64,000 nt of DNA, taken from positions 13,208,162-13,272,161 of the forward strand of contig OW804099.1 in NCBI GenBank assembly GCA_942159475.1, given 5' to 3'. Position 1 is the stretch's first letter; each line of letters begins with the position of its first letter. The notes under the pieces are model-generated. The model did no database searches. It had not been told where the DNA came from and was given only the letters and a program-made list of their open reading frames with translations. The DNA comes from Sthenelais limicola (taxonomy: Eukaryota; Annelida; Polychaeta; Phyllodocida; Sigalionidae). This document shows positions 31,438-63,143 of this stretch, one piece after another. The position numbers were made by a program, and so were the translations under genes.

Positions 31438-31441
31438 GTAC
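31438..31441. repeat. Target site duplication of element B, left copy (GTAC)
   Basis: GTAC directly precedes the left LTR and recurs directly after the right LTR at 52830-52833. Four to six bases is normal for Ty3/gypsy integration. Confidence 0.85.
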
Positions 31442-32147
31442 TGTTGCGCGCGTAGCTTCGGATCTTTATGCTATTGGGCGGTGCATCGGGCCAGGGTGAA
31501 TATATCTAGCTAGTATTCATATGCATTCGAATATACTCGGACTTCGGGGTATTGCCTCTCATGATGTTTAATATAGAACGTGATATTGTAGGAGACGATA
31601 GGCGATATTGAATAGAGAGTCATGGTGATATATAGTAGCTGTAGGTTTCCGGTATGAACAACACAACACGATGAGTTTTAGTACGCCACTACTTGTATAT
31701 TGTATCTTATCCTGTACATAGATGCTAGGTTGATGTTAGTATAGACATTGAATCATATGAGATCTTATGAGACTCCTTCCCTGTATTCTTACGGTTGTTA
31801 CTGCATGACAATCCGAGATCAGTGTGTTATAATATATTGGTTCTAGCGCACATAGTGCGTCTAGTACGTCGTGGTATCTACCGCATATCTCTCTATATTC
31901 CAGTCTATATGAATGTCCCAAGTCTCTCCCGTTCTATGTATATATTCTTATGTATATCCCAGTATTCCCCGTATATATACCCAGGGGGGGTGAGTGTCGG
32001 GTATCCGTATTGGTGGACCCTTTATCCTATGATACCTTTCCCTCCCTCTAGCCCCTCCCCTTCCCTTAGCGCATGCCTCAGTAAAAGAAACATGTCCTAT
32101 CCTACTACCCACCCTACTGCCCTCTCGTGTTAACCACGGTTACTACA
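31442..32147 (-). repeat. 3' LTR of element B
   Basis: 706 bp, ending on the minus strand in GCGCGCAACA and beginning TGTAGTAACC. A TATA-like GTATATATAC lies at 31971-31980, about 170 bases inside. It matches the right LTR base for base as far as I can read. Confidence 0.95.
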
Positions 32148-35104: not shown

Positions 35105-37520
35105 TTATAGTTTTGAACCAACAGCTGCTTCATTTCCATGGAGATTAGTGGCTACCAGGAGTCGGCTGTTGGAAGTGGAGTTAAGAAGCTCGATCTTTTC
35201 TGCAGGTCTTAGTGACCAGAATACTATTTCTTCTGGCAACTCGACCGTTTCTGCTGAACCAGCATTTTCTACCTCTAGGCCCCCAAGCCACCTAAGTCGA
35301 ACAACTGTCCTGAACGAGCAGCAAACCTGTTTTGCTACCATTCCCGTGACGACAGGTGGCGTGGCCGATCTGAGTACCTCCACTGGATATACCAATTTAC
35401 ACAGGAAAAGAGCATACCGCTTCTCTCCCTCCTGTACACGGAGGCTAAGTATTGTGTGTCCTGCCGTGTTATGGCCTCGAGCTTTTCTACATCCACACCC
35501 ATTACAGATCCGTCGTATTATTTGTCCCAACACGTATACTACTACTAGTCCTGCCAGCATCGTACCATATGACGGCCATTCCCCAGACTTGCCTGCTTCA
35601 AGTGAATCTGAGTTCAGGGCGGGGCCTTGTGTTCCCCATTCGATCTTGCCCCAACTATCTTCTGGAAATAGTTCCAGGGTTGAGCCGATCTTCCCTGCCA
35701 ACGCCCCTTTTAACGATCCAATGATCGCGAGCATTCTGAAAATTCTATAGCAAAGATAAATGGTTATTAATACATGTATCATTTCTATTAGCCAGAATAC
35801 CAGTGGTACCTGCGGCGTTACACTTAGATCTGTTAGATCTCGCCATGCCTTATATTGCCATGCTTCACCTTGCTCCATGTTACTCTTAATTTCTCTCGCA
35901 ACCTTATTTACCTCCATTCCTTTTGCAAACTGCTGGGGGGACATTGCTGTTAGCATTTTCCCTAGTTCCTTACCTGTTGGCAAATTTAAATGTACTAAGA
36001 AATTAGTGAGGCTTTCTCCCGAAAAGTTTCCCACCGGTATACCAAAACTTCTTGCAAATGCCAAATTAAACCCATGCGCCACAGAAACCTCTACCCCGCT
36101 TAATTCTCTACACGTCAGCTCCTTTGGTGCCAATCTATGGTGGTCAATCTGCAGGGTGCATCCGCAGGACACCTCGAACACAGTGATCCCCACGATATTG
36201 ACCTGCCTTGTACTATTTCTGCATGTCAGTAACCCCTTGGGTCCCTTATTTATAAGCAAGTACGTTGACCCCTCCACATTTTTAACAATGTCTGGCGCCC
36301 TTTTCTTCAAGTACATGTCAAACATGCAATACCTAAGAACATTGGCACTATGGTCATTAAATAAAGCGATCATGCAGTCCTCATCCTTTCCTGAATTATC
36401 TATGAAGGTGAATGGACATATATAGCTCCCTTTTTTAGTACATTGCATTAATTCAATGGCGTCCACCTCCATTAATTCCCCTGAGCCGCGTTGGGCCAAC
36501 ATGCGTTGTGTGGCCGATCTCAATCGTGTGCATCCATCCTGAGATTCCCTGTGCACATGCAATGGCGTATCAAACACCTCCATTTCATACAACTGAAGGG
36601 GCTCCGAATCGTTTGCTAGGGAAATTGGTACCAGTATGTTGATCGTATTGTTGGGCCCTATCTGTACCCCAACGTTAGTATTCCAGTCGATATAATCCCC
36701 CAAAATGTTCAAAGTGCTGTTATCTCCTAATACCTGTCTCACTCTCTCTTCCCACTGACTTTCCATAAATACCTTGGCAAGTGACTCATGTATTTTTCCC
36801 TCTCTTAATGTTTCCAAGACATCACCCACTATCGTTATATCTTCAATGTAATTTCTTATCGCCAGGCATTCCAAAATTGAGCCTTGGAGCTGCTGTTGGA
36901 TTCTCCCCTGTGAGTCCACTTCCTCGTGCATTATGTCCGATAATTGAGCCGTCTTATTCGCAAAGCGTAGCCATTTATCTTCTAATTCATCCATGGCGCT
37001 TATTGATTCGTTTACATGCGATCTTAGGAACCTAAATATGATATTGGAATTGGCCACTAACTTCATGAGAGCCTCATCCCTCAGGTGTGGGTTTCTTATT
37101 ATCCCTGGTGCAAGCCTATGAATAATGTGTCTTTCTACGTTTCTTAAATCAGAGTTAGTTGATAGATCGAGAATCCCAGCCACAATTTTCCCAAACGGGG
37201 CCAGATAATTTCTTTTTAATCGTTTAGGGCGCTGCAAAATATTTCTCAAGTGATTTGCACGCTCATACTCCCTTGCGGCCCTCGAATGTAGCTCCCTGAT
37301 ATACTTGACTAAAGACTCCCCCACCATTTCATAACCTTTTGGCCATTCTCCCTTAACTATCTGGATCGGCTGTGGAGGTATAATATTCAGCTCAGAACGG
37401 AAGCCTAAACTCAAAGTTTCCACCCCTGTTATCAATGTACCACGGTCAGCGAATACCACTCCATAGTTGTGCCTTAGAACCGTTGTAGCCATGCAACTAT
37501 ATGGCATGCACATCATGATC
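35105..37520 (-). CDS. env: Envelope-like glycoprotein of element B (class I / F-like candidate)
   Basis: Open frame of 803 aa (ATG at 37516), with a strong acceptor (branch-like GCTAAC, TTTTTAG) just before 37520. A basic motif near residues 96-102 is directly followed by a hydrophobic, Gly/Ala-containing stretch (about 103-118) and a Leu-Asp segment, the arrangement of a cleaved fusion subunit as in errantivirus and baculovirus F proteins. Probable helical heptads follow at about 170-260. Hydrophobic segments lie at about 571-596 and 652-672, then CNGCGC and a long C-terminal region of about 130 residues that looks beta-rich and resembles the ORF at 58993-59634. The role would be membrane fusion at the particle surface; this is inferred from layout. 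A short upstream exon may supply the true N-terminus. Confidence 0.75.
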
Positions 37521-37645
37521 CTAAAAACAAGAAGTTAGCAAAAAATGAAAAACGGCTTAATGCTGAGAAATCCACACTAGCCTTCACTGGCCTATGTAAA
37601 AGTGATATACTTCTAGTAAACTCACCCTATTATGAGTTCGAACAT
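37521..37645 (-). other. Candidate short leader exon and intron before env
   Basis: An ATG at 37645-37643 is followed after 20 nt by the donor AGG|GTGAGT (exon ends 37626), with the acceptor at 37521/37520. Removing the 105-nt intron puts this ATG in frame with env and would add a hydrophobic start. Only the positions are given here. Confidence 0.5.
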
Positions 37646-38386
37646 CTTGCGATCCTAGTCCTGTAGTAAGATACTAGTCCCCGTTCTTTCTATATGCAAG
37701 TTCGTTCCTGATCCCTGTACAAAAGTCAAGTGATGCTCTCCCTCTGGCTGTGCTGAGCTTATATCTGAGACCAGACCAGTCCAAGACCTATTGGGCTTGC
37801 TCCTTCCCTCCTCCCTCTCAAGCATACGACACATCCCCATATCAAGTTAGGGTACAGGTGTCCCAGCTCATGACCTTCCTCTGCTAGATGAAATACTGCA
37901 TAATGACACCTAGCCACTTATCGTGTATGAGGCCTGTCTTGCAATTTATAGAACAACCCCCCCCCAACCGCTTGCAAGCTACTTATGGGTTTCGACAGCT
38001 TGAGCCCAATTGCTGTGTCTAATTTTAACTGTCTTGCCTCCCAAGCTCCACTTTTCATACGTTCCAGCCCCCATCAAAATACACCAATAATCCCACCATT
38101 TTAGGTTACTGGCTCCATTTACCCCAACCTGAATCCAGCACAGTACATTACACTCGATCAAAAGACTAAATGCGCCTCCAATTCGTTTCAATTTCCTTAC
38201 ATGAATTTAAATCTGCATCTCCACACAACCCCGACACCCCAATGAGTTGCACGTAGGCATCTTATACCTCCATAATTCTTACATGTATACCATGTCACCA
38301 TGGATCCAACAGAGCCCCAAACTTATCATAAAGCCTAATATACCCTCATAACATAACCCTGCACATTTCAGATATGTATTGTGTAC
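37646..38386 (-). other. Non-coding spacer before env in element B
   Basis: No accessory-family motif found. Two short chance frames (61 and 70 codons) have no recognisable features. Confidence 0.4.
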
Positions 38387-38956
38387 CTATGGGTTCAATT
38401 GTCCAGAACTCACCTTCAAGCCCACGGGCATCCATGACAGAGGCAATCTTAGCTCGATTTGATATACATCCACCGGCAACGACAGGTGATGTCTTATAGT
38501 TGCCTCAGACATTTCTGTTAGCTTGTCCAGGAATTTTACCGCTTGCTCCATATTTTCAGGGAATATCCCCCTCACCCTTGGACGAAACATGTTTAAAATT
38601 TCATATGTTAAATCCGAGATAATGCATACCGTATCCTGTAGCCTCCTTAATGGCGTGAGAGTGTGTCTCTGCGAGATATCAATCGTCAAGGACCGAATAG
38701 GCTCATAACGTAGGCCTCTTAAAAAATCAAATGCCGCTTTTCTCAAGCGAACGATATGCGTCTCCTTTTGCAGCCTTCTAATGGGCTCAAACTCCGGATA
38801 TCTCTGAGATGGAGACAACATGAAGAATTTCAAGATTTCGAGCATTAACCAATTGGCCCTGACCTGTTGATTCAAGATGGCTGCCATTCTGGCAGCCCTA
38901 TCCGTTCTCCTAATAATTTCCGCATTAATCATCTCACTCCCCCTTCTTGTATCCAT
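38387..38956 (-). CDS. Accessory ORF e of element B (novel paralogous family)
   Basis: 189 codons to the stop, with AAG|GTGAGT at 38414/38413 (phase 0) near the end, so the last few codons are probably intronic. Predicted mostly helical and basic, with no signal peptide. It carries the family pattern as PSQRY followed by RLQKETHI at about residues 52-70, then a second Arg-rich helix. The ATG at 38956 follows GAAAG, as in accessory ORF a. Function unknown; its place between pol and env suggests a regulatory or particle-associated accessory protein, but nothing in the sequence proves it. Confidence 0.7.
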   Translation of the reverse strand: MDTRRGSEMINAEIIRRTDRAARMAAILNQQVRANWLMLEILKFFMLSPSQRYPEFEPIRRLQKETHIVRLRKAAFDFLRGLRYEPIRSLTIDISQRHTLTPLRRLQDTVCIISDLTYEILNMFRPRVRGIFPENMEQAVKFLDKLTEMSEATIRHHLSLPVDVYQIELRLPLSWMPVGLKVSSGQLNP

Positions 38957-39165
38957 CTTTCACTACAGTGATGCAAACCCTATTATACCAGGTCTATTTC
39001 CTGTGACAATACTATATATCCCTGGTCCCCCCCCCCCCCTCCACCGGCATGCTTTATATACCCTAGGTCCATCTTCACCTACCCATTATAGTTTTTTTTT
39101 ATCCCACTCCCTAGCAACTGGTGACGTTTTACCAATCGACCACGACAAATATAGACAGTATATGC

Positions 39166-39795
39166 TTACACGGGGATGCCCCCATCTTCCACTAATTTGT
39201 GAGACTCCATATAACTCACCTTTCTTGTCATTATGTCTGGCAAATACTCTTCTGGTAATACGTCACCCAGGGTCGCAAAGTCAATATCCGATTCCAAGTT
39301 AGCGACTATAAGTTTTCTCGCCAGGCCTGTGCGCTTCTGTAGATAGGGAATTAATCTGTGTTGTCGTTTATCTTCTATACATTCTAATCTGAATTCCTCA
39401 GCACAATAGACGTCCAAGATGTTTAGCAACATTTCGCCCACCGCCTTTGTCAAATGTAATAATTTATCGGACACAGTTACTGCTTTCTGGGCTTCGAAGA
39501 CACTTCTCATTCTTCCGCCCCTTGTCGTGAGCCGTTCTATTGCCCGAAAACCCCTGCTTTCAACGTAGATTCTGCAACGTTCCTTCATAATATATATATA
39601 CGTATCCCTTTCCAATCGTTCTCTAGTGGAAATACGTGCGGATCCACCTCTGTTCACAGGGTTCACAAGGAAATACCTAGTGGCCCTGACCAGCAATATC
39701 CCCAAGTTTCTCTTCTGATTTTTCAAGATCTTCAGCTCGTCTGCACCCAATCTAGCTTTTTCCAAACGACACATTTGTCTCTGTTCCAGCTCCAT
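39166..39795 (-). CDS. Accessory ORF d of element B (novel paralogous family)
   Basis: About 209 codons from the ATG at 39795; the open frame continues upstream to a possible acceptor (GCGGTAG, before 39816). Family pattern as PVNRG followed by RLERDTYI at about residues 46-66, then helices with an Arg/Lys-rich EDKRQHRL and a TGLARKLIVANL end motif. The strong donor AAG|GTGAGT at 39220/39219 is in phase 0, and the remaining 17 codons look intronic. It is the longest member. Function unknown. Confidence 0.7.
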   Translation of the reverse strand: MELEQRQMCRLEKARLGADELKILKNQKRNLGILLVRATRYFLVNPVNRGGSARISTRERLERDTYIYIMKERCRIYVESRGFRAIERLTTRGGRMRSVFEAQKAVTVSDKLLHLTKAVGEMLLNILDVYCAEEFRLECIEDKRQHRLIPYLQKRTGLARKLIVANLESDIDFATLGDVLPEEYLPDIMTRKVSYMESHKLVEDGGIPV

Positions 39796-39804
39796 CGTAT
39801 TCAA

Positions 39805-40968
39805 AGTTGAGGACTACCGCCACATCAGGACACCAGTGCAGACACTAAACTCCAAATACCAAACTCCAGACCCTAAACTTCAGACCCCCTTTCAAGATCC
39901 GCGTGTATTTGTTATTTTCTTCTTCCCATCATCCTTTATTACCTTCCAACTTCCTCTGCCAAGCTTTATTACCCATATTTACCACCCCTGACTCCTACTC
40001 ATAATTAATGTTTTGAGTTAATACTTCCTGCGCACGCGACCTATGTTGTGCCACCCGCCCCGCCAGACACGATACTTTCAGTTTTGCGTATGTTCCATCA
40101 CTCATTTTCAAGCCACAAAATATGACATAAACATCTTACAGTAATACACACGCGCCGAGTGTCATCACCCCACAAGCCCACCCCCATCATATTCTGAGGA
40201 GAGATTATTGTTTTCTCATTGGGTATACAAAAATTCGTATCCCACAAGCTGTATATACCATCAACAGATATCAATCCAAACGTCCCAAGCTCACACAACA
40301 TCTAGTCACACATACCCCCAAATCCCAGGCTATCAATCCCCAGTGAGTTCCTTGTAGACACTCACCGAATTACCAAATAATAGCCCATATATTTTGTCTT
40401 CAAGATAAAGACCAGTTGTAGTAACCTTCACCCTCACTCCCTTCATAACATAAAATCATTGCGCTCCACACCTTAAAATGATTCATTTATTTCTACTCTG
40501 AAACAACCATTCCTGCAGCGACAATTATATATGGCATACACTTATTATTATGTCTTACTCATAGTTTGTAGCCCGAGGGCCTCCCAAGAATTGATTTTCC
40601 TGATACACCCGAAAACGACCACCACGGCGTGTTTTAACAGAAAACCATACCTTCATTAATTCTATCTGAAATGTATGCTTTTCAGAACGTTATCTTCACG
40701 AGTCAAATTCATCACAACATGTCACCTTTACACGACCGTATAAGATAACGCCTCGTTGTATCACATGTTGTCTCGCTCAATCATCATCAGGCGTCTCCTT
40801 TCATTAAACGATTTTAAGAACAATCATTCTGCATTCCATCCATTCAAACCGAATCCTCGAATTACAAAATGATATATGTCACTTCCATATTTGCCGGCTA
40901 GCCCGTGACGTCACCCCTCTCCCTATCTGATTCAAATGTATCAACTTTCTCCTTCCCCAAGATTGTCA
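39805..40968 (-). other. Non-coding spacer between accessory ORFs d and c
   Basis: About 1.16 kb with no accessory-family pattern and no convincing ORF on either strand. Confidence 0.4.
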
Positions 40969-41475
40969 CTACAGACAGAGAATGAAAACTTGACCCACCG
41001 CCTGCAGCAACCAATCTCCATTAATCCATTCGATTGGTGACATTACGTTGACCGTCCCTTGAAGCAATTCCTGCACTTTTGTTTTAGATAAACCTGACAA
41101 TGCCATGAACCGCTTGGTGTCCGCCTCCTTGTGATTTTTTCTCTGGCAACAGCGCTTTCTTAAATAATCCGTTGAGTATAATTTCAATAGTACATCCAAA
41201 ATCCTATAGACCTGATGCAAGATCGCACTCATTCTGTCTTTATCACTCATTACCCGCAAACGCTTGGTAGAGTACCATTTTCCTGGCCTAACTTTCAGGG
41301 ATCGTAGGAGTTTATCACATTTTTCGTATAAAGATAGCAAGTACCATTCTACTTCCAATCGATAATTAGGCAACTGCCTAGGATATCTAATCCAGGGAGC
41401 TAAAAGCCAAAACGAATACACTTTAATACACAAGATCGACGCGTTCCTAATATTTATTTTACTATGCTCCAGCAT
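40969..41475 (-). CDS. Accessory ORF c of element B (novel paralogous family)
   Basis: About 168 codons from the ATG at 41475. Family pattern as PWIRY followed by RLEVEWYL at about residues 30-50, then a basic Cys-containing stretch (RKRCCQRK) and the SGLSKTKVQELL end motif. A weaker donor (GCG|GTGGGT at about 40999) is in phase 0 near the stop. Probably an all-helical basic protein of unknown role. Confidence 0.7.
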   Translation of the reverse strand: MLEHSKINIRNASILCIKVYSFWLLAPWIRYPRQLPNYRLEVEWYLLSLYEKCDKLLRSLKVRPGKWYSTKRLRVMSDKDRMSAILHQVYRILDVLLKLYSTDYLRKRCCQRKNHKEADTKRFMALSGLSKTKVQELLQGTVNVMSPIEWINGDWLLQAVGQVFILCL

Positions 41476-43086
41476 TGTCACCAAATTGCAAAGCCGAGCA
41501 AAGCTTCAGAAATGGCTTGTCATTCGGCAGCGCCCTTCCTCTCCTGATAATCTCATCTGTCTAGGTGCCCATTGTCTAGGTGGGTTATTTCCCTCATATT
41601 TTTATTGTCATTAAAATTATGCATCAGTTTAACCTAGCCTACTAGGTCGCTGCCGGCCCGTGCTCCCTTCATCTGTATAGATCAGTCTATTTCCTGCGTT
41701 GCCATAGTCACCTCACCTGCCTGTCTTATATGGCATAGTGATTCCCCGGAGACGCTGGTATGCTCACTTCATGTTATTTTTATACTAATCCACCCCTGGA
41801 CCACTCCTGCTATTCTCATATACCGAAAAAGAATCTAGACAATACCATGAACCCTTACCTGAATATTCCGAGACTCAGTTTACTCTGTCCTAACTATAGT
41901 CATCTTTGTTTCCCCAATTTCTATCAACACGTTATTTTATGTAAACATCGGATCCTCGAATCAGCCGACGAACAACATACTACCTCGTCCTAACGAACCC
42001 CCACGTTCCCACGAAATCCATATCTGTAAAACTTATTACGACCAGCGTTTCTCAGCGTTTTTTATGCCCACCTGTCACCTAGTGATTGAAACTTTCTGCT
42101 TTTCGTTGACTTTCACACCCAATCTGCTTTCGTCTTATCAGTGACTCATCAACTATACACCGCTCTAATCTTCATTCAATTATATGGTTTTCAATTCATG
42201 GATTCTAAAAAAAAATTCTCTCATTATTCCCTCGCTCCTTATCTCTATGAGTGTCATGGTGTCATGATCTTATGACCCGATCATGACTCGATCCCCGGTG
42301 CCTCCCCTTTGTTCATTTATTACGTCAATCAAATCTTTTTAGCCAATTGGCGTGTCCCTACAATGATATCAGAGTGGTGTCTTTGATTAGGCAAATTCCC
42401 CATTTGGTATCCTGTAGACATCATTTCCAGCTTAACTTCTCGCAGCAGCACCCAATTTCCGCCGACCCCCTACACCAGCTTCCTATCTCCTATATATAAT
42501 TTCCCGATCTTCAAACCTTTTGGAAACCATGGCAGGCCGAGAACTTTACCTGGCTATCGACAATGACATTGTCATTGTCGAAACCAGAGACGTATGGAGC
42601 CTGAGCGATTTAGCTCGGCTCCTCGTCTATGGCCTGTCTTTGAAGGCAGCTCGGTGGTTTTATGGGCGGGCGTGTGCTCTTGTTTTCAGGGCATACCGCC
42701 GCTGGGCTAACGAGTAGCACATTTTTTGTATATCCCAGTAGATTTTAGCTATAGTAGTTACGTAGTATGTTTTTAGTTTTTCTTATTCTTTTATAATAAC
42801 CCATATTACTCATCATATATTATCATATTCAAGAAACCCTCATATTCTACTCTCTTTATCCCTACCCCTCCTTGCACCCCTTCCGCTTCTGCACCACAAC
42901 CAACCTTCCCCACACCTCGCACTGGTAAGTCGCCTTATATACCTTTTTATTTCATTCTGATTTATTTTTCCCTGCTTATAAACCTGTCCTTGTCTTAGAA
43001 ACTGCTCCACTGGAAATAACTGCTCACTGTAACATCTCAAAGACCCCGTATCTCTAGTTATACATAACATGATCGAGTCAGATATA
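41476..43086 (-). other. Spacer between accessory ORFs c and b
   Basis: About 1.6 kb without a sixth family member on the minus strand. A 110-codon minus frame (42840-43172) lacks the family pattern and is probably chance. The opposite strand has a small ORF with a good start context at 42529-42717. Confidence 0.4.
42529..42717 (+). CDS. Small antisense ORF inside element B, possible
   Basis: 62 codons from ATG, in the context ACCATGG, which is close to ideal for animals. A TATA-like CTATATATAA lies about 35-40 bases upstream (about 42489). The protein is amphipathic and Arg/Trp-rich at its C-terminus, with no recognised domain. Bases 42557-42581 form a perfect 25-base odd palindrome inside it. 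It could be chance. Confidence 0.3.
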   Translation: MAGRELYLAIDNDIVIVETRDVWSLSDLARLLVYGLSLKAARWFYGRACALVFRAYRRWANE

Positions 43087-43542
43087 TTACCTACCCTCAG
43101 ACACCGGAATCCATTTTTCCAATGTTTTCTCAATCCAGCTCCATCGTTCACACGCCAGTTTTTCCAAGTCACTAACTGTCATCCTAGTGTTACATGCCAA
43201 CAACTTAATTATAATATCTCTTGGGTAGTTGCAACATCCTATTTTTAACATCGTGCCGTCGAAATAACTTTTTAACATCGACAGGTATATATACTGCTGC
43301 TTTCGTGATCGATCCTCCCAGCTCATGTGATTGACGGCCATTCTCTCCCTCCTATCTGGCATTTCTCTAATCAAGAAACGAGAGGCTCCCCACCAGATAT
43401 TTTTTAAGTGTGTTTCCATTTCAATTCGCCTCCTAGCGTTAGCCCCTCTGAATCTCAGGTGTGGTTTCTGCATATACAGACGAGCCAATCGAATCACCTG
43501 TATCACCTCTGCCTTCTCTCCCCTGGTTATAGGTCTACACAT
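43087..43542 (-). CDS. Accessory ORF b of element B (novel paralogous family)
   Basis: 151 codons. Family pattern as PHLRF followed by RIEMETHL at about residues 27-47. WWGASRF and an R/K-rich SRKQQYIYLSML helix follow, then a Leu-rich end with TVSDLEKLA. Possible donors overlap the stop (GGTAG|GTAATA near 43091, or AGG|GTAGGT); their phase differs from the other members. Function unknown. Confidence 0.65.
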   Translation of the reverse strand: MCRPITRGEKAEVIQVIRLARLYMQKPHLRFRGANARRRIEMETHLKNIWWGASRFLIREMPDRRERMAVNHMSWEDRSRKQQYIYLSMLKSYFDGTMLKIGCCNYPRDIIIKLLACNTRMTVSDLEKLACERWSWIEKTLEKWIPVSEGR

Positions 43543-43622
43543 TCTCCTCGATAGTCAGTATTCAATGCTTACAGGCCTATAAAACTGTATACTGTGTCCC
43601 CACCCATTTCCAAAATACCTTC

Positions 43623-44117
43623 TCACTGCCTATAAGTGAATACACTTACCTTGACTTCCGCCCATGCGCTTGGACACAACTCCTTAATGTTTAGCAGGTC
43701 CACCTCTTCCGTGAAAACTGCGTTAATTTTATCTGCTGGGATGAAGGTTAGACCACTTATATATTGATAAAGAACCACTCTATCACATTGTTCGTATGCC
43801 AATCGTTTCTGCTCTGCTTCTAGCGATAAAATATTGCATATTACCCGACGTATTAATACGTGGGCAATATATTTATGCTGCTGGTATTTTGTCCTTGCCA
43901 ATGGGAATACATCTGTGATGCTTTTCACCTCGTTGTCTGGCAATCTCAGATCAGCATACATGTGCCACAGGTACCACTCGTTTGTCAACCTTTTCTCGGG
44001 ACATCCTCCGTACCTGTGAGCTGGATGTATGGTAAATATTCTTATCAATCTTATAATCAGGCGTTCTATGTCGTACATATCCTGTACCCCTAATGCTGTA
44101 CCAGGCAACTTGTTCAT
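43623..44117 (-). CDS. Accessory ORF a of element B (novel paralogous family)
   Basis: 164 codons, first of the five after pol. Family pattern as PAHRY followed by RLTNEWYL at about residues 32-51, an Arg/His-rich middle helix region and the SGLTFIPADKINAVF end motif. A near-consensus donor AAG|GTAAGT at 43650/43649 is in phase 0, eight codons before the stop. The start ATG follows GAAAG. No membrane segments. Function unknown. Confidence 0.7.
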   Translation of the reverse strand: MNKLPGTALGVQDMYDIERLIIRLIRIFTIHPAHRYGGCPEKRLTNEWYLWHMYADLRLPDNEVKSITDVFPLARTKYQQHKYIAHVLIRRVICNILSLEAEQKRLAYEQCDRVVLYQYISGLTFIPADKINAVFTEEVDLLNIKELCPSAWAEVKVSVFTYRQ

Positions 44118-45100
44118 CTTTCGACATCAACGGCGATGAGCGCTCCTTCCTCTCCACTATAGTGCCACTGGGCAGCCCTTATTCCCCATCTTATTTTTAA
44201 TTGCTCAACCCCTACCTTCTTCCGGGGCAGCTGACACTCTGGCACTATCCCATAAGTCATCTCCAAGCTTGACTTATTGGAGCAGCTTACCTTGCTGCTA
44301 CCATTTGTCTCTCATATCTCACTCACCCTATTATGCGTATTCTGGCCATACCCTTTCAACTTCGTGATACATTATTTCTCCTGTTTTACGTATCTGCTAC
44401 GCCTGGGGCTTGTCATATTAGCCGAGCATTGTTGTCACAAGAATGTCACCCATAGTTATTCGACAAGCGACTTCATTCTACCTTATTTCACCCGCATCTC
44501 CCTTCCCCACTTATTATTCATTGTATAAGTCCTTTATTTACCCAATGAGAACTGTCAGTGACAATTAACTTTGCTTACCCTTTTTCTCGGATAAGCAAAG
44601 CTTTCCTAGACCTTTATATAATATTAACTCACCTAGGAAATCAATATGGCATATACTAGGGTATCCTCCCATGTCAGACTGAAGTCACGGCACTAGATTC
44701 TCTCCCTCCTTCCATCTGAACCCGCACAGGAGCTGTTTGTTAGTTTGTTTTTTGTTTTCTTTTTTGTGTCTTTCTTTTTCTACCCTCAATTCCAACCCAA
44801 CCTCCCTTTTTTATTCACTCGTGATTAAACCCCATTTCGCTGGGATAACTCCTCACACCAGGCGCGGCTCACTCCCATTCACTTCCTCGTATCACTTTCA
44901 CATAAAAACCACTGTTGCTGGCTTGCAGCTCTCGCCTCGTGGTTACAACCCTATAACCACCACAGCTGTTCGAGAATGTAAACACCGCGTCTCGCTCAAG
45001 CTCCCATGCCACATATATATTGTTAATGCGCCCTTGCCAAGGTACTACGTACTACACTTATTTCATCCATTCTATCAACGTTCTACAGGATCTGGAGAAT
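44118..45100 (-). other. Spacer between pol and accessory ORF a in element B
   Basis: About 980 bases; no accessory-family pattern seen. A plus-strand frame (44737-45270) runs through it into pol antisense and has no recognisable features. Confidence 0.4.
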
Positions 45101-48100
45101 CTACTGTGTATCCTCTATCTCATTCTTATCCTTCTCTCCCTCCTCTTCAGGCCAATTGCAGCCTATTTCTTCTGTGCAGGCTATATCCTGCCATCCCTTC
45201 TCATCCAGCGGGCCCTTCTCTTCATACTCGTGCAAAGGTAGTAAATCTGGTGAGAGCAGTCTTTCCATAAAGTGACTGGTTTTGGATACACTAACCGGTT
45301 TCAAATGAGATACATGCACTGGTTTAGGCAGTGTTGCCCCAGTATCCATCCTCCTTAGTCTGGCTGTGCACCCTGTGGGTCTTGCACAGATGACAAAGGG
45401 GCCACAGAAATTCTTCTGCAACTTATATGCAGTTCCAGGTTGTAGTAGGCGATTCACCTTCATATATACCAACGATCCTGACCTCAACCTGTGTGCATTC
45501 GCCTGCCTATCATAATATTCCTTCATTTTCGCCTGTGACGTCAGTAATGCTTCCCGAGCTAGGTCCCCATAGATCTCTTGTTTTTCGACGATCTTGCCTA
45601 GCTGCTCCAGAAGGGGCCTCATTTCTCCCTCGTATTCCTTTAAGACATTTTCGTGAGGAAGTCGTGGGAATCTTCCATACATTAGCAGGTACGCTGGGTA
45701 GTTTGTCGAGCTTGAATCCGACGCATTCATCGCAAATACAATCGGGGCCACAAATTGACACCAATTTTTCTGATCTTTATTTACGTATGCCCTCAGGGCC
45801 GTCTTCAGGCTACGATTAAATCTCTCGATTTGACCCTGACTCTGAGGATAGTAGCTCGATCCCAGGACCTGCCTAATTCCCATTACTGTGCAGAAATTTC
45901 TGAACAATTTGCTAGTAAATGAAGAACCGTTATCGCTGAAAAGAGTGCATGGCACTCCCAAGACAGACACTACGTGCTCAAAGAACTCAGGTATTAAGGT
46001 TTCAGATTTTATGTCTTTTGTTGGCCAGGCTACACAGAACCTTGTGGCTACATCACAGACCGTGTGCACATATTTATAGCCTCTGCTCGATTCAGGCAGT
46101 GGACCTATGGTATCAATCTCGATAGCGTCCCATGGTACCTGTGACAGCTCCTTAACGGTCATAGGTACCTTGATAGGATTAGGATTCGGCTTCACCTCCA
46201 GACATTTCTGACAAGACCCAATATACTCACCTATGTCTCTAGCCATTGATGGCCAGTAGTACCGCGGTGAGGCAATGCTAAGCATTTTTTTTATACCCAT
46301 ATGTGCGCCCAAACCGACGTCATGTATTTGATTCAATAATTTTTCTACCATAGATTGTGGGACCACTAATTGCGCTCTCTCTTCTATCTGTGCCTTTCTC
46401 GTCCTTGGTGGTACCCTGTACAGGATGCCGCCTGATAGCAAGAAACAGTCGTGTTGCAGCAAAACTCCCCTTGCTCTTGTGTTATCCTTCGGGAGCTTTT
46501 CCCTCTCAATGTAATTTGTCATATCGCTGCAAAACTCGTCAGTTATTTGCTCCTTCTCGAACACCTCTCTCGTACCTAAAGTCCCATACTCAGTGATGAG
46601 CCTTTCATAGAACGCCGTATCTGTGATTTGCACTTCTCTAGCCCTTACTCCCTTTCGTCTTTTCTCTCTTTGATACTTACCAACCAATGACGGGACTCCC
46701 AAAGCCTTCCTCCGTCTTGACACTCCTCTGTGGATTAGGTCTGTCCCCTCTGGTGTCTCTTCCTCAGCCTCTGTCTCCTCCTCTCGTGCTGGTGTGTCAT
46801 GGTTGCCAGTATCAGACTGACTATCCCCCTCTTCTGAGTCTTCCTCCCCTAATTTCCCTGCCTTGTCTCTTTCCTCGATATATAGCGCCATCCTTTCTGT
46901 CACACGCGGGTTTTTTCTAGTAACCATCATTATTTGCTCCCCTGGCGTGCCCAGGCGTGTCACCACCGTGCCATCGACTCTTGGGAAGTCCCTACTATCA
47001 TCCTCGATAGGTGCTGTGTCTTGCTCTGGTTCTGGTGCACTTACCCGGATAATTGGCGTGTCATCCTTCTCATCTCGCCTCTTATTTCTGAGACGTCCAT
47101 TTTTTAAGATTGACGGTCTCCTATACTTTCTGATGGGCGATGCTCCCAGTACCTCCTCCTTATCAAAGAATCGGATGTGATTCACCGCCTTGAATCTTAC
47201 CTGCCTCTGCTGCGGTCCCTGCTCCTCCTTTGCTGTAATGCCATCCCCAAAATATGGCATTCTTGATAAAATATCGGCTGTGATGTTGCATTTCCCTTTG
47301 ATGTGCCGCAAGGTGAAATCAAAATTACTGAACCAGTCGATCCAACGAGCCATTCTTCCTGTAAGATCCTGTTTAGCGTTCAAGGCTAATAATGCCGCAT
47401 GATCAGTGTATACCTCAAAGTGACTGCCCAGAACGTAATGCTTAAACTTTTCCAAGCCATACCGGACCGCCACCAATTCTTTTTCTGTCGCCGAGAAATT
47501 TTGTTCAGCAGAAGACAGGCTTCTTCCTGCAAACGCAACCGGCCTATGGAAGCAATTATCATGAAGCTGAGTCAACACGATGCCAATCCCAATTCGAGAA
47601 GCATCACACCAGATAGTGAACCCTTTAGAATAATCAGGGTATCTTAGAACGACATCTTCGCACATTGACCGCTTTACTGCCTTAAACGCTCTATCTGCCT
47701 CTGTATTCCACTGAAAACGCTCTCTTCTACCAAGCTTCTTCGTCAGCTGGTACAAGGGGACCATTTTATCTGCAAACCCTGGAATGAATGTCCTATAGTA
47801 ATTTGCCAGACCGTTAAAGGCCCTCATTTCCCTGACAGTTTTTGGTATTGGATATGAACGAATTATACGAACCTTCTCTGGGTCCGGCTGCAACCCATCT
47901 TTCGTTACTACAAACCCCAGAAATTGCATTATTTCATACCCAAACGCACATTTCTCCGCCCTGAACTTAAGCTTCGCCACTTGGAATGCTTGCAATACCT
48001 CTTCCACGTGCTGCAGATGCTCCTCCCATGTTTGTGATGCTATAATTACATCATCCATGTAGGGCAGTGCATTTGGCACATATTTTAAAACGCTCTCAAT

Positions 48101-49822
48101 CACCGAATGAAACGCTTTTGGCGAAGTTTTGAGCCCCATAGGCATGACCTTGTACTGGAACACCCCTCTGGGTGTGACAAAACTAGTTTTGGGCTTGTCT
48201 TCTGGCCTTAGAGGCACTTGAAAAAATCCTGAATGGCAATCCAATTTTGAGAAAAATCTTCCCCCCAGTCCCCCGACGTTTTCCAACGTCTCGTCTGCTG
48301 AAGGGAAGACCCTACATTCGTTCTTTATACATTTATTAATTTTTCTGTAATCTATGACAATTCTATATTTTTTGTCCTGTCTTGCAGCTGCTTTCCCTTT
48401 CTCCACTAGAAAGCATGGCGCAGCAAATTCAGACTCGCCATTCGTTCGTTCAATAATGCCCAAACGCATCTGCTCTTCCAGCATTGTTTCCAGTACCCTT
48501 GTCATATGAGGGTTTGTACGGTATGGACTTCGAATAGGGGCCACATAATCTTCTTTCAACTCTATTTTATGTGCAAAAATGTCAGTTGTCGATATCGGCG
48601 AATCTTTTGTGGCGAAGACCGCGCGGTAACGCTGTAGCAAACTTGCCATACTTAATTTCTGCTCCGCCGACAGATTCTCGCCTAGGGTGTAATCAACCCT
48701 AGTCTCACTGCATTTTGTGCTACCTACCTCCTCGATCGGTCGCTCAGACTGACCGGGAACCCCAGCTTTTACATAATCATCTTCATTGACCACTGAAAAT
48801 GCTGCCAAAACCGAACCCTTTCCCAATTTTATTGGCGTGTTAGCCGCGTTAAATACGGTAACCGGTATATTGTTTCCCCCCCGCTGTGGCCTCACGAGGG
48901 CTCTCTTGACCGCAAATGGGACCTGCACACATCTTTTCAAATTGTCAACTACTCCTACTGCATGATTTAAATTTTGATGCGCCGAAACCACTGCCATGCA
49001 AGTAAATTCTGATTTCGGAGGTATTAATTTAGGCTTAGTTATTCTAACGGTGTAATGGTCAGGGTCTTGGATTTGGAAGTCAATCTTGGCCTTTCTTGCT
49101 TTCAAGAAATCGACACCTATGATACACTGAAGGGATAAACCCTTCACAACATAAAACCATGCGTTAGTGCGAACTTTTCCAATGTTAATAGACAACAACA
49201 CCCTTTCATTCGACTTGTGGCGCCCCCCATCGGCTGTGTAAATAACCAAATATGTCTGTACACGGCGGAGCAGCGCCCCTTTTTCCTGCACTACTTGGTT
49301 TAACGTATCCGTCGAAATACAACTGATACTAGCTCCCGTGTCCACCAGGCAGCTAATTTTTGCTGAGCCAACTGTGCAAATTGTTCTGCAGTCTTCCAGT
49401 TGGACTGTCACTTTCCCCGCGTCACTGTCCTGTAACACCAGGCGTGAGGAACGATCATCGCCCTCCTTACTATTAATTATACTGTTTTGTGTCACCTCTT
49501 TATGTTTACTTAAGGACATCAACCCATTGTCCTTTCTCTTCTGAAGTTTCAATTCCTGTACCGCTCTATTATTTTCACGCTGTTCTTTTTTCATCTCCTG
49601 TAATTTCCATCTTCTCCTCTTCTGGTTCCACCTCTTTCTCATTGCTTTTTTCACCTCCTTTTCTCGAAAGGCCATCTCCTGCACCTCCTGAGTTCCTTTC
49701 TCTTGACTCATACTTATGTCACTGTCATCTATTGAAACTGAACTTCCGCTTTCATCCTCTCCATCTTCCTCAGATCGATTCTCCCTTTCTGCCGGTATGG
49801 CTGGCAACATTCCAACCGGCAT
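45101..49822 (-). CDS. pol: Pol polyprotein of element B (protease, RT, RNase H, integrase)
   Basis: 1573 aa from the ATG at 49822. The N-terminal 120 residues are charged. Protease: LVDTGAS with D161. Reverse transcriptase: RIVIDYRKIN, then YMDD at 588-591. RNase H: WCDASRIGIG. After an acidic linker (about 910-1060), the integrase has an HHCC finger and a core with D1237, D1297 and E1333 (35 residues between the last two), then a GPF-type tail (NFCGPFVIC). All catalytic residues are present. The gag stop lies three bases before this ATG and the frame is -1 to gag and open upstream, so either frameshifting or reinitiation could express it. Confidence 0.94.
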   Translation of the reverse strand: MPVGMLPAIPAERENRSEEDGEDESGSSVSIDDSDISMSQEKGTQEVQEMAFREKEVKKAMRKRWNQKRRRWKLQEMKKEQRENNRAVQELKLQKRKDNGLMSLSKHKEVTQNSIINSKEGDDRSSRLVLQDSDAGKVTVQLEDCRTICTVGSAKISCLVDTGASISCISTDTLNQVVQEKGALLRRVQTYLVIYTADGGRHKSNERVLLSINIGKVRTNAWFYVVKGLSLQCIIGVDFLKARKAKIDFQIQDPDHYTVRITKPKLIPPKSEFTCMAVVSAHQNLNHAVGVVDNLKRCVQVPFAVKRALVRPQRGGNNIPVTVFNAANTPIKLGKGSVLAAFSVVNEDDYVKAGVPGQSERPIEEVGSTKCSETRVDYTLGENLSAEQKLSMASLLQRYRAVFATKDSPISTTDIFAHKIELKEDYVAPIRSPYRTNPHMTRVLETMLEEQMRLGIIERTNGESEFAAPCFLVEKGKAAARQDKKYRIVIDYRKINKCIKNECRVFPSADETLENVGGLGGRFFSKLDCHSGFFQVPLRPEDKPKTSFVTPRGVFQYKVMPMGLKTSPKAFHSVIESVLKYVPNALPYMDDVIIASQTWEEHLQHVEEVLQAFQVAKLKFRAEKCAFGYEIMQFLGFVVTKDGLQPDPEKVRIIRSYPIPKTVREMRAFNGLANYYRTFIPGFADKMVPLYQLTKKLGRRERFQWNTEADRAFKAVKRSMCEDVVLRYPDYSKGFTIWCDASRIGIGIVLTQLHDNCFHRPVAFAGRSLSSAEQNFSATEKELVAVRYGLEKFKHYVLGSHFEVYTDHAALLALNAKQDLTGRMARWIDWFSNFDFTLRHIKGKCNITADILSRMPYFGDGITAKEEQGPQQRQVRFKAVNHIRFFDKEEVLGASPIRKYRRPSILKNGRLRNKRRDEKDDTPIIRVSAPEPEQDTAPIEDDSRDFPRVDGTVVTRLGTPGEQIMMVTRKNPRVTERMALYIEERDKAGKLGEEDSEEGDSQSDTGNHDTPAREEETEAEEETPEGTDLIHRGVSRRRKALGVPSLVGKYQREKRRKGVRAREVQITDTAFYERLITEYGTLGTREVFEKEQITDEFCSDMTNYIEREKLPKDNTRARGVLLQHDCFLLSGGILYRVPPRTRKAQIEERAQLVVPQSMVEKLLNQIHDVGLGAHMGIKKMLSIASPRYYWPSMARDIGEYIGSCQKCLEVKPNPNPIKVPMTVKELSQVPWDAIEIDTIGPLPESSRGYKYVHTVCDVATRFCVAWPTKDIKSETLIPEFFEHVVSVLGVPCTLFSDNGSSFTSKLFRNFCTVMGIRQVLGSSYYPQSQGQIERFNRSLKTALRAYVNKDQKNWCQFVAPIVFAMNASDSSSTNYPAYLLMYGRFPRLPHENVLKEYEGEMRPLLEQLGKIVEKQEIYGDLAREALLTSQAKMKEYYDRQANAHRLRSGSLVYMKVNRLLQPGTAYKLQKNFCGPFVICARPTGCTARLRRMDTGATLPKPVHVSHLKPVSVSKTSHFMERLLSPDLLPLHEYEEKGPLDEKGWQDIACTEEIGCNWPEEEGEKDKNEIEDTQ

Positions 49823-49858
49823 ATCTACTGAAAATTCTGCCGATACACTCCGTTTTTC
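49790..49858 (-). promoter_or_regulatory. Candidate gag-pol frameshift or reinitiation region of element B
   Basis: Two heptamers are in gag phase: G AAA AAC (49858-49852) and G AAT TTT (49837-49831), the latter just before the gag stop. A perfect 7-bp stem (49821-49815 with 49796-49790) begins nine bases after the second. The -1 frame is open from the first heptamer to pol. Neither heptamer is canonical, and the pol ATG overlaps the stem, so reinitiation is also possible. Confidence 0.45.
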
Positions 49859-52062
49859 ACCACCCCAGTTGTTTTTGGTGACTGAACGCTTGATCTCTTA
49901 TTCTTATCTTTCTCCTGGCGTCTCTCTCCCTCACCTCTTCTAGGAGTCCATTCTCTTTCCTGGCGTCTCTCTTCCTCACCTCTTCTAGGAGTCCATTCTC
50001 CTTTCTCCTCTACTGGTAGGCTTCTAGCAGGACCGGGGTGTGATCTGACATCACTGGGAGTAACGTCATAACCCTTCATTGCCAGAGAAGCTATCATTGA
50101 TTGAGTAGAACCCACTAGGTGAAGTCTCAGTGCTTTTTCATTTTGCTCGTCCGACAACTCATGTTTTCTGGCCGCTCTTCTAGCCTCTTCACAAGTGCGA
50201 GGAGCCTCTGTCAGGACTCTCTCCGCTAATCCATCCTTTAAACCTGCTATAAAAGCCTTCAGTTTCTCATCCTCGTGCAGTGATGTCCTTGCCAGCAATA
50301 CCAGCATGGCGTCTGCATATGTCTCCACACTCTCACCTGTCTCCTGTCGTCGCCGGGAATAGTCATCCTTCACCTCACTATACGGCATTTCCTGAAACTT
50401 GGTCAAGAATTTACTTTTGATATCTGAGTACGACAGTGTACCCCGTTTTCTGGCTGCAACTGATGCGACTTGTTGGTAATATGCTTTAGCTGATCCCTCC
50501 AATCTACCACCCAGCCCCTGCAGCCAATACATCTCAGGTATGCCCAAGGCACTTGCATAGTCCTCATACTCTGTCAGGAATTCAGACACATTTCTGGTCG
50601 CCGTTGAATGTCGAAAATTTTCAGGCCCCCTAATGAAGTGTCTCATTGCCGCCCCTCCCCCTTCGTTAGACTTATCTGACCATCTTCCTGTTTGTGCAGG
50701 GGTAAACGCTGGGAGCACATTAGGTAGCCTATACATCTCGGTTATATCCCCGGAATCTTCTGAGCAAATTGTGCTACTAACACCTATTTTCGTTGCTTGC
50801 TGGTTTGCTCTCTGGGGTGTCCGCAGTACGCTATTTTTAGGCTGCTCTACCCCTCCAGCGTTCGTGAGATTTCTGACCATGTCTGTAAGGTTCTTCCTGT
50901 CCTGCTTGTAACGCACAGACGCATCTCTAAATAGGGCACTCTCCTTTTCATGTTCTATTTTCAGCTTATCCATCTCTTCTGCTAGCCAGTTTGCCCTTGC
51001 TTCCCTTATTTGGTTTTCCTTTTCCATTTCCTCACACCACTCTCTATTTCTGGCCTCTCTCACCTCCTCCATTTCGTGTCTTGCTATTTCTGCCCTCTCC
51101 CACTCCTCCCGATCGCTTTCTTCCTTCCTATTGGCTCTAGCTCTGGCCCGTCTTTCCTCCTCCAGCTCCCTTTTCAGCTCCTCCAACTCCTTGTTATGGT
51201 TTTCTTTTTCATTCGTCATATATTCATTTCTCTGTTGTTCTGTTTTTTCCATTTTCTGTTGTGCATTTTTCCAGTCATTCTGCAGCGTTACAATTATATC
51301 CCTATTTCCGTCTTCTGCAGTTTTCACCCTTCGTCGCGCGCCCTCCTCCCATGCTAGTTTTAGTACGTTTATCCTAGCTTCGTGCCTATCTTCGGCATCT
51401 TTTAACATTTTTTCATTCGTTCGTTCCCAATCATTTCTCATATCCTGGACTGTCCTCAGGGTATCTTCCTCCGCTGCCTTAAGAGCGGCTTGAGTTCTCT
51501 GCAACTCTTTGCTGACAATATCCACGCTTTGCCTGAGCAGCTCCTCTTTGGCCCCTTGCGGGCTTAAGTAGTCAAAGTCTGGATTATAAGGGAGTGGCAC
51601 TAATGGCTCTGTGTAATATGGCGGCTTACCAGCGTCCCACGTTACTTCAGGTATTAATGGCACACTAGGGTCATCACAAAAATCTGCTGCGAATGGATTG
51701 TTTCTCTTGGGCCTAGCACCTCCCACTGCTGTACTCTCCGCGCTCAAGTTAGCGTAACTCGGTGGTCCCTGGACAGAAGAGTCCGGAGATGAATCTTCTG
51801 TACTCTCTCTTTCCGTCTTTACCTCCCTATTCACATGAACCCCCACACTAGGTCTTGCGGACGCCTTCATTCTTGCCAATCTCTTCTCCATTAATTTAGC
51901 AAGATTTTTTATTCCATCTTTGATTATGGACACCTTCTCCCTCTCCACTTTGCCGATTCGTTCTGTTGTTTCAGCAAAGTTCTTTGCACTTTGTGTAATT
52001 CGAGCATTGTTCTCCTGTATTTCCTTCACCAAGTCCGCCACTGATGACCCCTGTTTCGACAT
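49825..52062 (-). CDS. gag: Gag polyprotein of element B
   Basis: 745 aa. Residues 1-80 and about 180-400 are predicted coiled coil, rich in Glu, Lys and Arg. A Ty3-type capsid (retrotransposon gag domain) lies at about 500-650, with FLTEYEDYA, LGGRLEGSAKAYY and ETGESVETYADAM. No CCHC zinc knuckle is present. Instead the C-terminus has a duplicated EWTPRRGE-ERRQE unit and a basic end that may bind RNA. The ATG follows the leader donor by about 16 bases. The protein would form the particle and package the genome RNA. Confidence 0.88.
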   Translation of the reverse strand: MSKQGSSVADLVKEIQENNARITQSAKNFAETTERIGKVEREKVSIIKDGIKNLAKLMEKRLARMKASARPSVGVHVNREVKTERESTEDSSPDSSVQGPPSYANLSAESTAVGGARPKRNNPFAADFCDDPSVPLIPEVTWDAGKPPYYTEPLVPLPYNPDFDYLSPQGAKEELLRQSVDIVSKELQRTQAALKAAEEDTLRTVQDMRNDWERTNEKMLKDAEDRHEARINVLKLAWEEGARRRVKTAEDGNRDIIVTLQNDWKNAQQKMEKTEQQRNEYMTNEKENHNKELEELKRELEEERRARARANRKEESDREEWERAEIARHEMEEVREARNREWCEEMEKENQIREARANWLAEEMDKLKIEHEKESALFRDASVRYKQDRKNLTDMVRNLTNAGGVEQPKNSVLRTPQRANQQATKIGVSSTICSEDSGDITEMYRLPNVLPAFTPAQTGRWSDKSNEGGGAAMRHFIRGPENFRHSTATRNVSEFLTEYEDYASALGIPEMYWLQGLGGRLEGSAKAYYQQVASVAARKRGTLSYSDIKSKFLTKFQEMPYSEVKDDYSRRRQETGESVETYADAMLVLLARTSLHEDEKLKAFIAGLKDGLAERVLTEAPRTCEEARRAARKHELSDEQNEKALRLHLVGSTQSMIASLAMKGYDVTPSDVRSHPGPARSLPVEEKGEWTPRRGEEERRQEREWTPRRGEGERRQEKDKNKRSSVQSPKTTGVVKNGVYRQNFQ

Positions 52063-52123: not shown

Positions 52124-52829
52124 TGTTGCGCGCGTAGCTTCGGATCTTTATGCTATTGGGCGGTGCATCGGGCCAGGGTGAATATATCTAGCTAGTATTC
52201 ATATGCATTCGAATATACTCGGACTTCGGGGTATTGCCTCTCATGATGTTTAATATAGAACGTGATATTGTAGGAGACGATAGGCGATATTGAATAGAGA
52301 GTCATGGTGATATATAGTAGCTGTAGGTTTCCGGTATGAACAACACAACACGATGAGTTTTAGTACGCCACTACTTGTATATTGTATCTTATCCTGTACA
52401 TAGATGCTAGGTTGATGTTAGTATAGACATTGAATCATATGAGATCTTATGAGACTCCTTCCCTGTATTCTTACGGTTGTTACTGCATGACAATCCGAGA
52501 TCAGTGTGTTATAATATATTGGTTCTAGCGCACATAGTGCGTCTAGTACGTCGTGGTATCTACCGCATATCTCTCTATATTCCAGTCTATATGAATGTCC
52601 CAAGTCTCTCCCGTTCTATGTATATATTCTTATGTATATCCCAGTATTCCCCGTATATATACCCAGGGGGGGTGAGTGTCGGGTATCCGTATTGGTGGAC
52701 CCTTTATCCTATGATACCTTTCCCTCCCTCTAGCCCCTCCCCTTCCCTTAGCGCATGCCTCAGTAAAAGAAACATGTCCTATCCTACTACCCACCCTACT
52801 GCCCTCTCGTGTTAACCACGGTTACTACA
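52124..52829 (-). repeat. 5' LTR of element B
   Basis: 706 bp, same as the left LTR as far as I can read. TATA-like GTATATATAC at 52653-52662 would drive minus-strand transcription through gag. Confidence 0.95.
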
Positions 52830-52833
52830 GTAC
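52830..52833. repeat. Target site duplication of element B, right copy (GTAC)
   Basis: Matches the left copy at 31438-31441. Confidence 0.85.
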
Positions 52834-61801: not shown

Positions 61802-62144
61802 ACCTTTTCCCTAAGTCTGGACTTGGTCTTGACGACTCCTTGGTGTCTTTGACGTGCTAGGCTCAACACTTCTTTTCACAGGTTGGTTGGTATGATGATC
61901 CTCGCCTGTCGTAAGACTATATGTAACCTACTTTCGTCAGTTCATCTTTACATGCCTTATATCCAACTTCTGCCTTGGAGAAGTCACTGGATGCGATGTA
62001 CTCACAGACTTTCTCCAGTTCTTCATCTGTCTTCGATGCTTGCTCTATCTCCCGAGCTGACATGGTTCTCGGGACGCTTTCTATTGTCATAGCTCGGATG
62101 GACTCCTCTCCTGAATCTCTCGCTGGACTCTGGAATTCAGCAAT
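61802..62144 (-). pseudogene. Element C disrupted segment between RNase H and integrase
   Basis: No long frame on the minus strand. By position it is the linker and integrase finger, with several frame breaks. Confidence 0.6.
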
Positions 62145-62846: not shown

Positions 62847-62873
62847 ATTACAATCATGGAGGACTTTAAGAAC

Positions 62874-63143
62874 TTACCCCAACCTATTATCATGCTCAGT
62901 CACATCCTTACCATGTACAAGAATATTGTCTGAAACATTTACAGCACCTTCACAATCTGCTATCAATTTGAATGGTAGCCCATCAAGTTTGGTGAACACA
63001 GAACTACCATTCATTTCTAGTATTACCTCATCGATAGTTGGGATCGGAAATCTCTCCCTTACCACAGCTTGATTTGCTCGACGCATGTTGATACAAATGC
63101 GAACATCATCACCTTTCTTAGGGATAACTACCATAGGTGACAC
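62874..63143 (-). pseudogene. Element C RT finger/palm fragment
   Basis: 89 codons with MVVIPKKGDDVRICINMRRAN and FPIPTIDEVI. About 50 residues of the palm appear deleted after FTKLDG. The catalytic block reads VSDNILVHG in place of an ADD motif, so an aspartate is lost. Confidence 0.85.

Follow-up and report, generated by a model that had tools for sequence, protein, structure and literature searches.

Five accessory genes, very probably paralogs, between pol and env of a Ty3/gypsy-type element in the annelid Sthenelais limicola

The accessory genes of complex retroviruses have usually been traced singly. Lentiviruses carry small accessory proteins between pol and env, with Vpr and Vpx as a paralog pair in one retro-element, and Cer1 of C. 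elegans is a Ty3/gypsy-type element. As described in PMC10309623, Cer1 produces the CERV protein from a spliced mRNA, and this protein is needed for the export of the genomic RNA. The giant Burro Ty3/gypsy elements of planarians, in the account given in PMC6431247, exceed 20 kb and have env homology and accessory open reading frames (ORFs). ORF3 of the long terminal repeat (LTR) elements of bdelloid rotifers is reported as a GDSL esterase, a DEDDy exonuclease or an env-like protein (PMC5408684), and sORF2 of the Drosophila MDG1 group as a transmembrane, fusogen-like protein (PMC11952523). Among the open-access papers listed by our literature searches, no title or opening of an abstract reported an LTR element whose accessory genes form a family of several paralogs. 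Here we analyze a stretch of 64,000 nucleotides of S. limicola DNA (contig OW804099.1, positions 13,208,162 to 13,272,161; hereafter the window), which holds a Ty3/gypsy-type element with five accessory ORFs, a to e, between pol and env.

The original prediction had placed these ORFs on the strand of the element, and each was found at its place, on the minus strand and with an ATG start.

43623..44117, minus strand: accessory ORF a, 164 aa; carries the motif; found by profile c; median dN/dS 0.13-0.24
43087..43542, minus strand: accessory ORF b, 151 aa; carries the motif; median dN/dS 0.11-0.18
40969..41475, minus strand: accessory ORF c, 168 aa, the hub of the family; its profile finds the other four; median dN/dS 0.13-0.26
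39166..39795, minus strand: accessory ORF d, 209 aa; carries the motif; median dN/dS 0.155-0.235; at least 151 genome matches
38387..38956, minus strand: accessory ORF e, 189 aa, the most conserved of the five; median dN/dS 0.065-0.106; at least 151 genome matches

The pattern that all five had been said to share, P-x2-R-[YFG]-x(6-9)-R-[LI]-x2-[ED]-x-[YH]-[LI], has exactly five occurrences when the window is translated in all six frames, one per ORF, and 60 mononucleotide-shuffled windows gave one match in total. The late turn resembling [ST]-G-L was also recovered: a and c have S-G-L, d has T-G-L, e has T-E-M, and b has T-R-M in the window and T-G-M or T-G-I in its other 21 aligned copies.

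The genome (1.13 Gb in 161 contigs, the largest above 160 Mb) contains at least 150 matches to a, besides those listed above for d and e; the best candidates alone were scored and the counts are lower bounds. Loci were picked from the ORF a matches, 20 of about 9.5 kb and 8 more diverged ones of about 7.5 kb, at 62-99% identity. The order a-b-c-d-e, with all five families, is kept in 25 of the 28 loci, some ORFs being split, and a and b alone are visible within the 7.5 kb fetched for L029, L034 and L036. No sixth member of the family was found in the window by profile search, nor in the 28 loci. By hand count ORF a is free of stops in 130 of the 150 matches listed, such lists favouring well-preserved copies, and most listed copies of d at 61-69% identity have an in-frame TGA. 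A copy was counted as intact if a single match without interruption covered at least 85% of the length, ATG not demanded; by this definition, and including the copies of the window, 28 of 29 copies of a, 26 of 29 of b, 20 of 26 of c, 19 of 26 of d and 20 of 26 of e are intact. The full pattern is present in 25/28, 12/26, 18/20, 19/19 and 19/20 of these (a to e). If the leading P is not required the counts become 26/28, 26/26, 19/20, 19/19 and 19/20, so the P is no fixed feature of b. As a separate observation, contig C21 of G000 (3411-43283) carries accessory ORFs from several copies, and three equal-scoring d matches on it are spaced by 4144 bp (30003, 34147, 38291), which suggests tandem amplification.

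To compare the five families, single-family profiles were searched against the 816 stop-to-stop frames of the window (at least 35 aa, six-frame). The top non-self matches of profile c were e (3e-6), d (4e-4), a (8e-4) and b (0.035), with unrelated frames from 0.69. The next four matches of profile a were c, e, d and b (0.026-0.25; unrelated frames from 0.55), profile d placed c (0.008) and e (0.11) ahead of unrelated frames, and profile e did the same with c (5e-5), b (0.014) and d (0.12). In a control with 20 shuffled versions of each sequence, E-values being calculated for a set of 100, profile c found e (5e-8), a (5e-7), d (1e-6) and b (4e-5), all better than the best shuffle at 2.4e-4. Matches of a to c (6e-6), of b to c (8e-7) and of e to c, d, a and b (b barely) were likewise better than their own best shuffles. 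With c as query, plain tblastn matched the place of d in 8 of the 20 loci of about 9.5 kb, at E 3e-5 to 4e-4 and 25-27% identity; overall, the other four families are 15-22% identical to c. By hhalign the probabilities were 70% for c-e, 60% for a-c and 21% for b-c, and among 100 controls made by shuffling or reversal the highest value was 7.6%.

In a tree of 41 sequences the five families were each monophyletic, with bootstrap values of 96-100 on long branches, so that the duplications predate every sampled lineage. The same tree unites d and e, and likewise a, b and c (support 87 and 85, with a long-branch warning). This grouping matches the gene order, as tandem duplication would produce. 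We conclude that a-e are very probably paralogs, members of one orphan family. The proposal that one ancestral gene was duplicated at least four times is thus supported by the one-family profiles, the order in 25 of 28 loci, the monophyly and the homologous splice donors described below. The duplications would have happened inside the element, the alternative being that the array was acquired already duplicated.

Purifying selection in other copies had been named in advance as a test of the prediction, and it was found. The nonsynonymous rate (dN) was below the synonymous rate (dS) in every pair of copies at dS 0.05-2.5 (a 316/316, b 283/283, c 160/160, d 160/160, e 152/152); pairs that were saturated or undefined (48, 33, 17, 0 and 27 for a to e) were excluded, and the pairs share history, so their counts are not independent. 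The medians listed with the ORFs are ranges across dS bins of at least 0.05. For comparison, one piece was taken from the C-terminal part of pol (18 of 20 loci with a match) and one from the N-terminal part of env (residues 1-345; 13 of 19 loci); their median ratios were 0.02-0.07 and 0.11-0.13. Close pairs (dS below 0.05) had higher medians, 0.17-0.50, with dN below dS in 13/14, 9/9, 11/13, 10/11 and 10/11 (a to e), as expected if copies drift after insertion. In windows of 20 codons the ratio was lowest over the motif in e (codons 51-70, 0.01), b (21-40, 0.05) and a (31-50, 0.11). In d it was 0.42 over the first half of the motif and 0.02 over its end and beyond (61-80), and in c the motif windows (0.18-0.20) were not clearly lower than the rest. 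The highest value in any family was 0.64, in c, and d reaches 0.63. Chance ORFs are ruled out by the purifying selection together with the many stop-free copies.

The ends of the five ORFs carry predicted 5' splice sites. All GT sites at 37400-45300 of the window that were aligned in at least 12 of 18 loci (n = 481) were scored and ranked.

43644..43652, minus strand: predicted 5' splice site near the end of a, exon ending at 43650; GTAAGT, median 12.7 bits; 18/18 loci exceed 5 bits; rank 1/481
43089..43097, minus strand: predicted 5' splice site at the end of b, exon ending at 43095; 16/17 loci exceed 5 bits; rank 11/481
40993..41001, minus strand: weaker predicted 5' splice site near the end of c, exon ending at 40999; 17/18 loci exceed 5 bits; rank 21/481
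39214..39222, minus strand: predicted 5' splice site near the end of d, exon ending at 39220; GTGAGT, 12.2 bits; 18/18 loci exceed 5 bits; rank 2/481
38408..38416, minus strand: predicted 5' splice site near the end of e, exon ending at 38414; GTGAGT, 12.2 bits; 18/18 loci exceed 5 bits; rank 3/481

All five lie within the final 60 nt of their ORFs, at a homologous place. Because conserved donors stand there, the last 1-17 residues as first read are probably intronic: the coordinates of the original prediction hold, but its C-termini extend beyond the donors, the final 8, 1, 9, 17 and 8 residues of a to e being probably intron. When the donors were compared in seven loci, that of d was GTGAGT or GTAAGT in all seven, and that of e varied among GTGAGT, GTAAGT, GTAGGT, GTAAGA and GTGAGA. 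The donor of c is better in L026 (GTGAGT) and in L032 and L033 (GTAAGT). Identity falls clearly past the donor in e, from 0.92 to 0.66, and modestly in a, c and d; in b, with one residue left, the measure is meaningless. Many genome-wide e matches below 90% identity stop at residue 183 or 184, two to three residues past the donor. Strong conserved acceptors were found at 37520 (env), 39336 (inside d), 40968 and 37591, and others downstream of env at 33958, 34726 and 35014, judged on two further loci. The acceptor at 39336 falls, by eye, at a codon boundary, and forms a 117-nt acceptor-donor pair with 39220. From these signals it is quite probable that each ORF is an exon with its own donor and that a-e are expressed through splicing.

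Signals of the same kind surround env, and candidate promoter words were seen in the region.

37626..37645, minus strand: putative env leader exon, from ATG to donor; donor 37626, 9.9 bits, 18/18 loci, rank 4/481; phase by eye
35105..37520, minus strand: env-like ORF, 803 aa from 37516, with acceptor 37520 (10.4 bits, 17/17 loci); hydrophobic segments; RPKR site
37690..37975, minus strand: conserved block ahead of env, apparently non-coding; 18 loci are 84-98% identical to it; TATAAG at 37758-37763
39052..39060, minus strand: putative TATA-like TATATAAAG, about 100 nt upstream of e; intact in 12/15 loci

The protein is called env-like for its position, its hydrophobic segments and its furin-like RPKR site; it had no match in Pfam or a protein database, and among PDB sequences, searched as a test for an F-like Env homologous to baculovirus F, its best E was 0.8. 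The Env of insect endogenous retroviruses and errantiviruses is described as made from a spliced subgenomic RNA (PMC12992720), and the predicted donor and acceptor conserved here would allow the same. The block before env is 81-88% identical in the most diverged group, versus 56-77% for most windows of a-d, and we favour a promoter or leader as its candidate function. An RNA element was considered for this block and rejected, with no Rfam match and a folding z of -0.22, no better than shuffles. By raw count, TATA-like words are kept before env in 15/15 loci and, less well, before c, where one at 41725-41730 is kept in 11/15; they are conserved also inside a and e. Own promoters for the accessory ORFs are possible.

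The anatomy of the element itself is well supported. It spans 21,388 bp at 31442-52829 of the window, on the minus strand, with a gag-like ORF, a Ty3/gypsy-type pol, ORFs a-e and the env-like ORF.

52124..52829, minus strand: 5' LTR, 706 bp; 706/706 identity with the other LTR
49825..52062, minus strand: gag-like ORF, 745 aa; named from its position, with a weak Pfam match to Arc_capsid_dom (E 0.0023, below the cut-off)
45101..49822, minus strand: pol, 1573 aa; protease, reverse transcriptase, RNase H and integrase, from Pfam domains
31442..32147, minus strand: 3' LTR, 706 bp; 706/706 identity with the other LTR

Since both LTRs are identical over all 706 positions, the insertion is young. The LTRs have TG...CA ends and are flanked by a GTAC duplication (52830-52833 and 31438-31441); target duplications of Ty3/gypsy elements are of 4-6 bp. 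The Pfam domains of pol (gag-asp_proteas 3e-7, RVT_1 5e-28, RT_RNaseH 2e-31, Integrase_H2C2 4e-18, rve 6e-12) stand in the Ty3/gypsy (Metaviridae) order protease, reverse transcriptase, RNase H, integrase. Elsewhere in the window lies a second Ty3/gypsy-type element (gag 7-1623, pol 1665-5891). After it comes an intact ORF of 1065 aa on the plus strand (6616-9813), glutamine-rich near its end, with stretches containing C and H and no Pfam match at E of 0.01 or less. On the minus strand, an ORF at 58993-59634 resembles the end of another env, with a hydrophobic segment and cysteine-rich sequence after it, and lies beside broken pol-like frames at 60842-63773. A long tandem repeat array of low GC content occupies 15034-17327, its shifted copies about 91-95% alike.

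The proteins of the five families are basic, with median isoelectric points (pI) of 9.2-10.3, and no hydrophobic segment was found in the window copies of a-e. A moderately confident AlphaFold2 model of c is all-helical (mean predicted local distance difference test, pLDDT, 72; predicted template-modelling score 0.69). In it, helices 116-127 and 131-143 are joined by a three-residue turn at S-G-L, a pair reminiscent of a helix-turn-helix or helix-hairpin-helix (HhH). The model of a was poor (pLDDT 47); its helices lie at places similar to those of c and are too weak to compare folds. It had been stated that no described family carries this pattern. In agreement, nothing exceeded the curated cut-off in Pfam or NCBIfam and nothing convincing appeared elsewhere, in collections that were not shown to hold relatives of the element. 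None of 68 members matched a Pfam family of lentiviral accessory proteins (Vif, Vpr, Vpx, Tat, Rev) at E of 1 or less, and the family profile had a single match among PDB sequences, a designed protein at E 0.42.

We propose that tandem duplication within an ancestor of the element produced a-e, and that each would be expressed from its own spliced subgenomic RNA, in which the donor would join the ORF to a downstream acceptor and so remove the downstream genes. The products, basic, arginine-rich, helical and without membrane segment, would be nuclear nucleic-acid-binding regulators, an assignment that we make tentatively. At least one of them would let the intron-containing genomic RNA exit the nucleus, or would control transcription, and the five copies would have divided such tasks among themselves, as their number suggests. 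With its many conserved splice sites the element would face the problem of exporting unspliced RNA, as does Cer1. By analogy, a role comparable to that of CERV in Cer1 or of lentiviral Rev is the most likely one. Taken as a whole, the reading of a-e as tandem-duplicated accessory exons encoding small basic regulators from spliced RNAs, most likely for handling RNA in the nucleus, is our preferred one and is offered as a plausible working model. Its extended form strikes us as rather doubtful: a multigene family of the element's own, with five exons duplicated together with their donor, a new fold, basic nuclear regulators and tasks divided over RNA export, transcription from internal promoters and host interaction, amounting to a system like that of complex retroviruses that arose independently in Metaviridae.

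Several observations weigh against this account. Concerning common ancestry, profile b recovered c, a and e only amid chance matches, the remaining profile pairs failed the shuffle control (the best match of d, which is c, narrowly missing), and seven of the ten hhalign pairs stayed below 6% (b-d 0.1%, c-d 0.3% and d-e 1.4%, for example). With these low profile-profile scores the support is weaker for d and b. Concerning splicing, the donor of c is lost in L035 and that of b in L032, the latter also being altered in L035. In L032, L033 and L035 an in-frame TGA is the second-last d codon before the donor, so splicing cannot extend the d protein there. In the sequence just upstream of the five ATGs no acceptor scores above 6 bits; the strongest, at 5.8 bits, falls within a, some 190 nt ahead of b. 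For a-e, the splice junctions, promoters and expression are all predictions from the DNA. Concerning function, one e copy has a pI of 7.0, matches to HhH, UBA and TAFII28 were weak and at chance level, and basic charge alone is no proof of RNA binding.

The main alternative is that a-e antagonize host defence as Vif, Vpr and Vpx do, each copy being directed against a different factor or variant in an arms race. The location between pol and env, the low identity of the other four families to c and the 20-codon ratios reached in c and d would agree with this. On the other hand, no such window exceeds 0.64 in any family, a test that may miss single selected sites, and e is constrained nearly as much as the pol piece. 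We consider this alternative unlikely, although it is the best of those set out here. It is improbable that a-e are particle components, nucleocapsid- or matrix-like basic proteins separate from Gag: they are basic and helical, all five occur in 25 of 28 loci, and the gag ORF has no CCHC knuckle match in Pfam, but a structural protein needs no five unequal copies with separate donors, and the profiles of a-e match no gag, pol or env frame of the element below E 1. Nor do we give much credit to the model in which a-e are alternative first exons spliced to a shared C-terminal exon. It would explain the donor at a homologous place in all five, with the same phase, by eye, in a, c, d and e, and good acceptors exist downstream (37520, 34726 and 33958, for example); the phase of b differs, however, d is closed ahead of its donor in the three loci with the TGA, and the in-phase tails past candidate acceptors are, by eye, short. 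That a-e are unrelated and share the motif by chance or convergence, as their 15-22% identity to c and the seven hhalign pairs below 6% (best control 7.6%) might suggest, is strongly disfavoured and very improbable in view of the shared pattern, the order of the profile matches, the tblastn matches between c and d, the monophyly and the homologous donors.

The conserved donors are exact, testable splice predictions. The element family has kept five old paralogs, and a single genome holds many copies of them that lack stops and come from several lineages; this makes the duplications datable and orderable, permits selection to be estimated gene by gene, and allows one to ask which tasks require separate proteins. 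If a-e handle RNA, Ty3/gypsy-type elements would have reached gene control in the style of complex retroviruses independently.

Among described systems, sORF2 of the MDG1 group is similar in being an expressed small accessory ORF of LTR retrotransposons; as it is described, it differs in being transmembrane, whereas a-e have no hydrophobic segment. The elements of bdelloid rotifers also have extra ORFs beyond gag and pol, with no paralogous array reported in the account consulted (PMC5408684). Burro, as presented in PMC6431247, is likewise of Ty3/gypsy type, above 20 kb, with env homology and accessory ORFs. Its extras are BIR, BCL2-like, MATH_TRAF_C and ankyrin domains, largely in a giant polyprotein, whereas here an orphan family is encoded in separate ORFs. 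The lentiviruses share with our element small accessory proteins, their position between pol and env and paralogs inside one element; they belong to Retroviridae and have two paralogs versus five here, and no sequence link to them was found. Cer1, to the extent covered by its published description, has one CERV protein versus five paralogs here, a difference drawn from that description and not from sequence. Like our element, it is an LTR retrotransposon with an extra protein from a spliced mRNA (here predicted) and a suggested handling of intron-containing genomic RNA.

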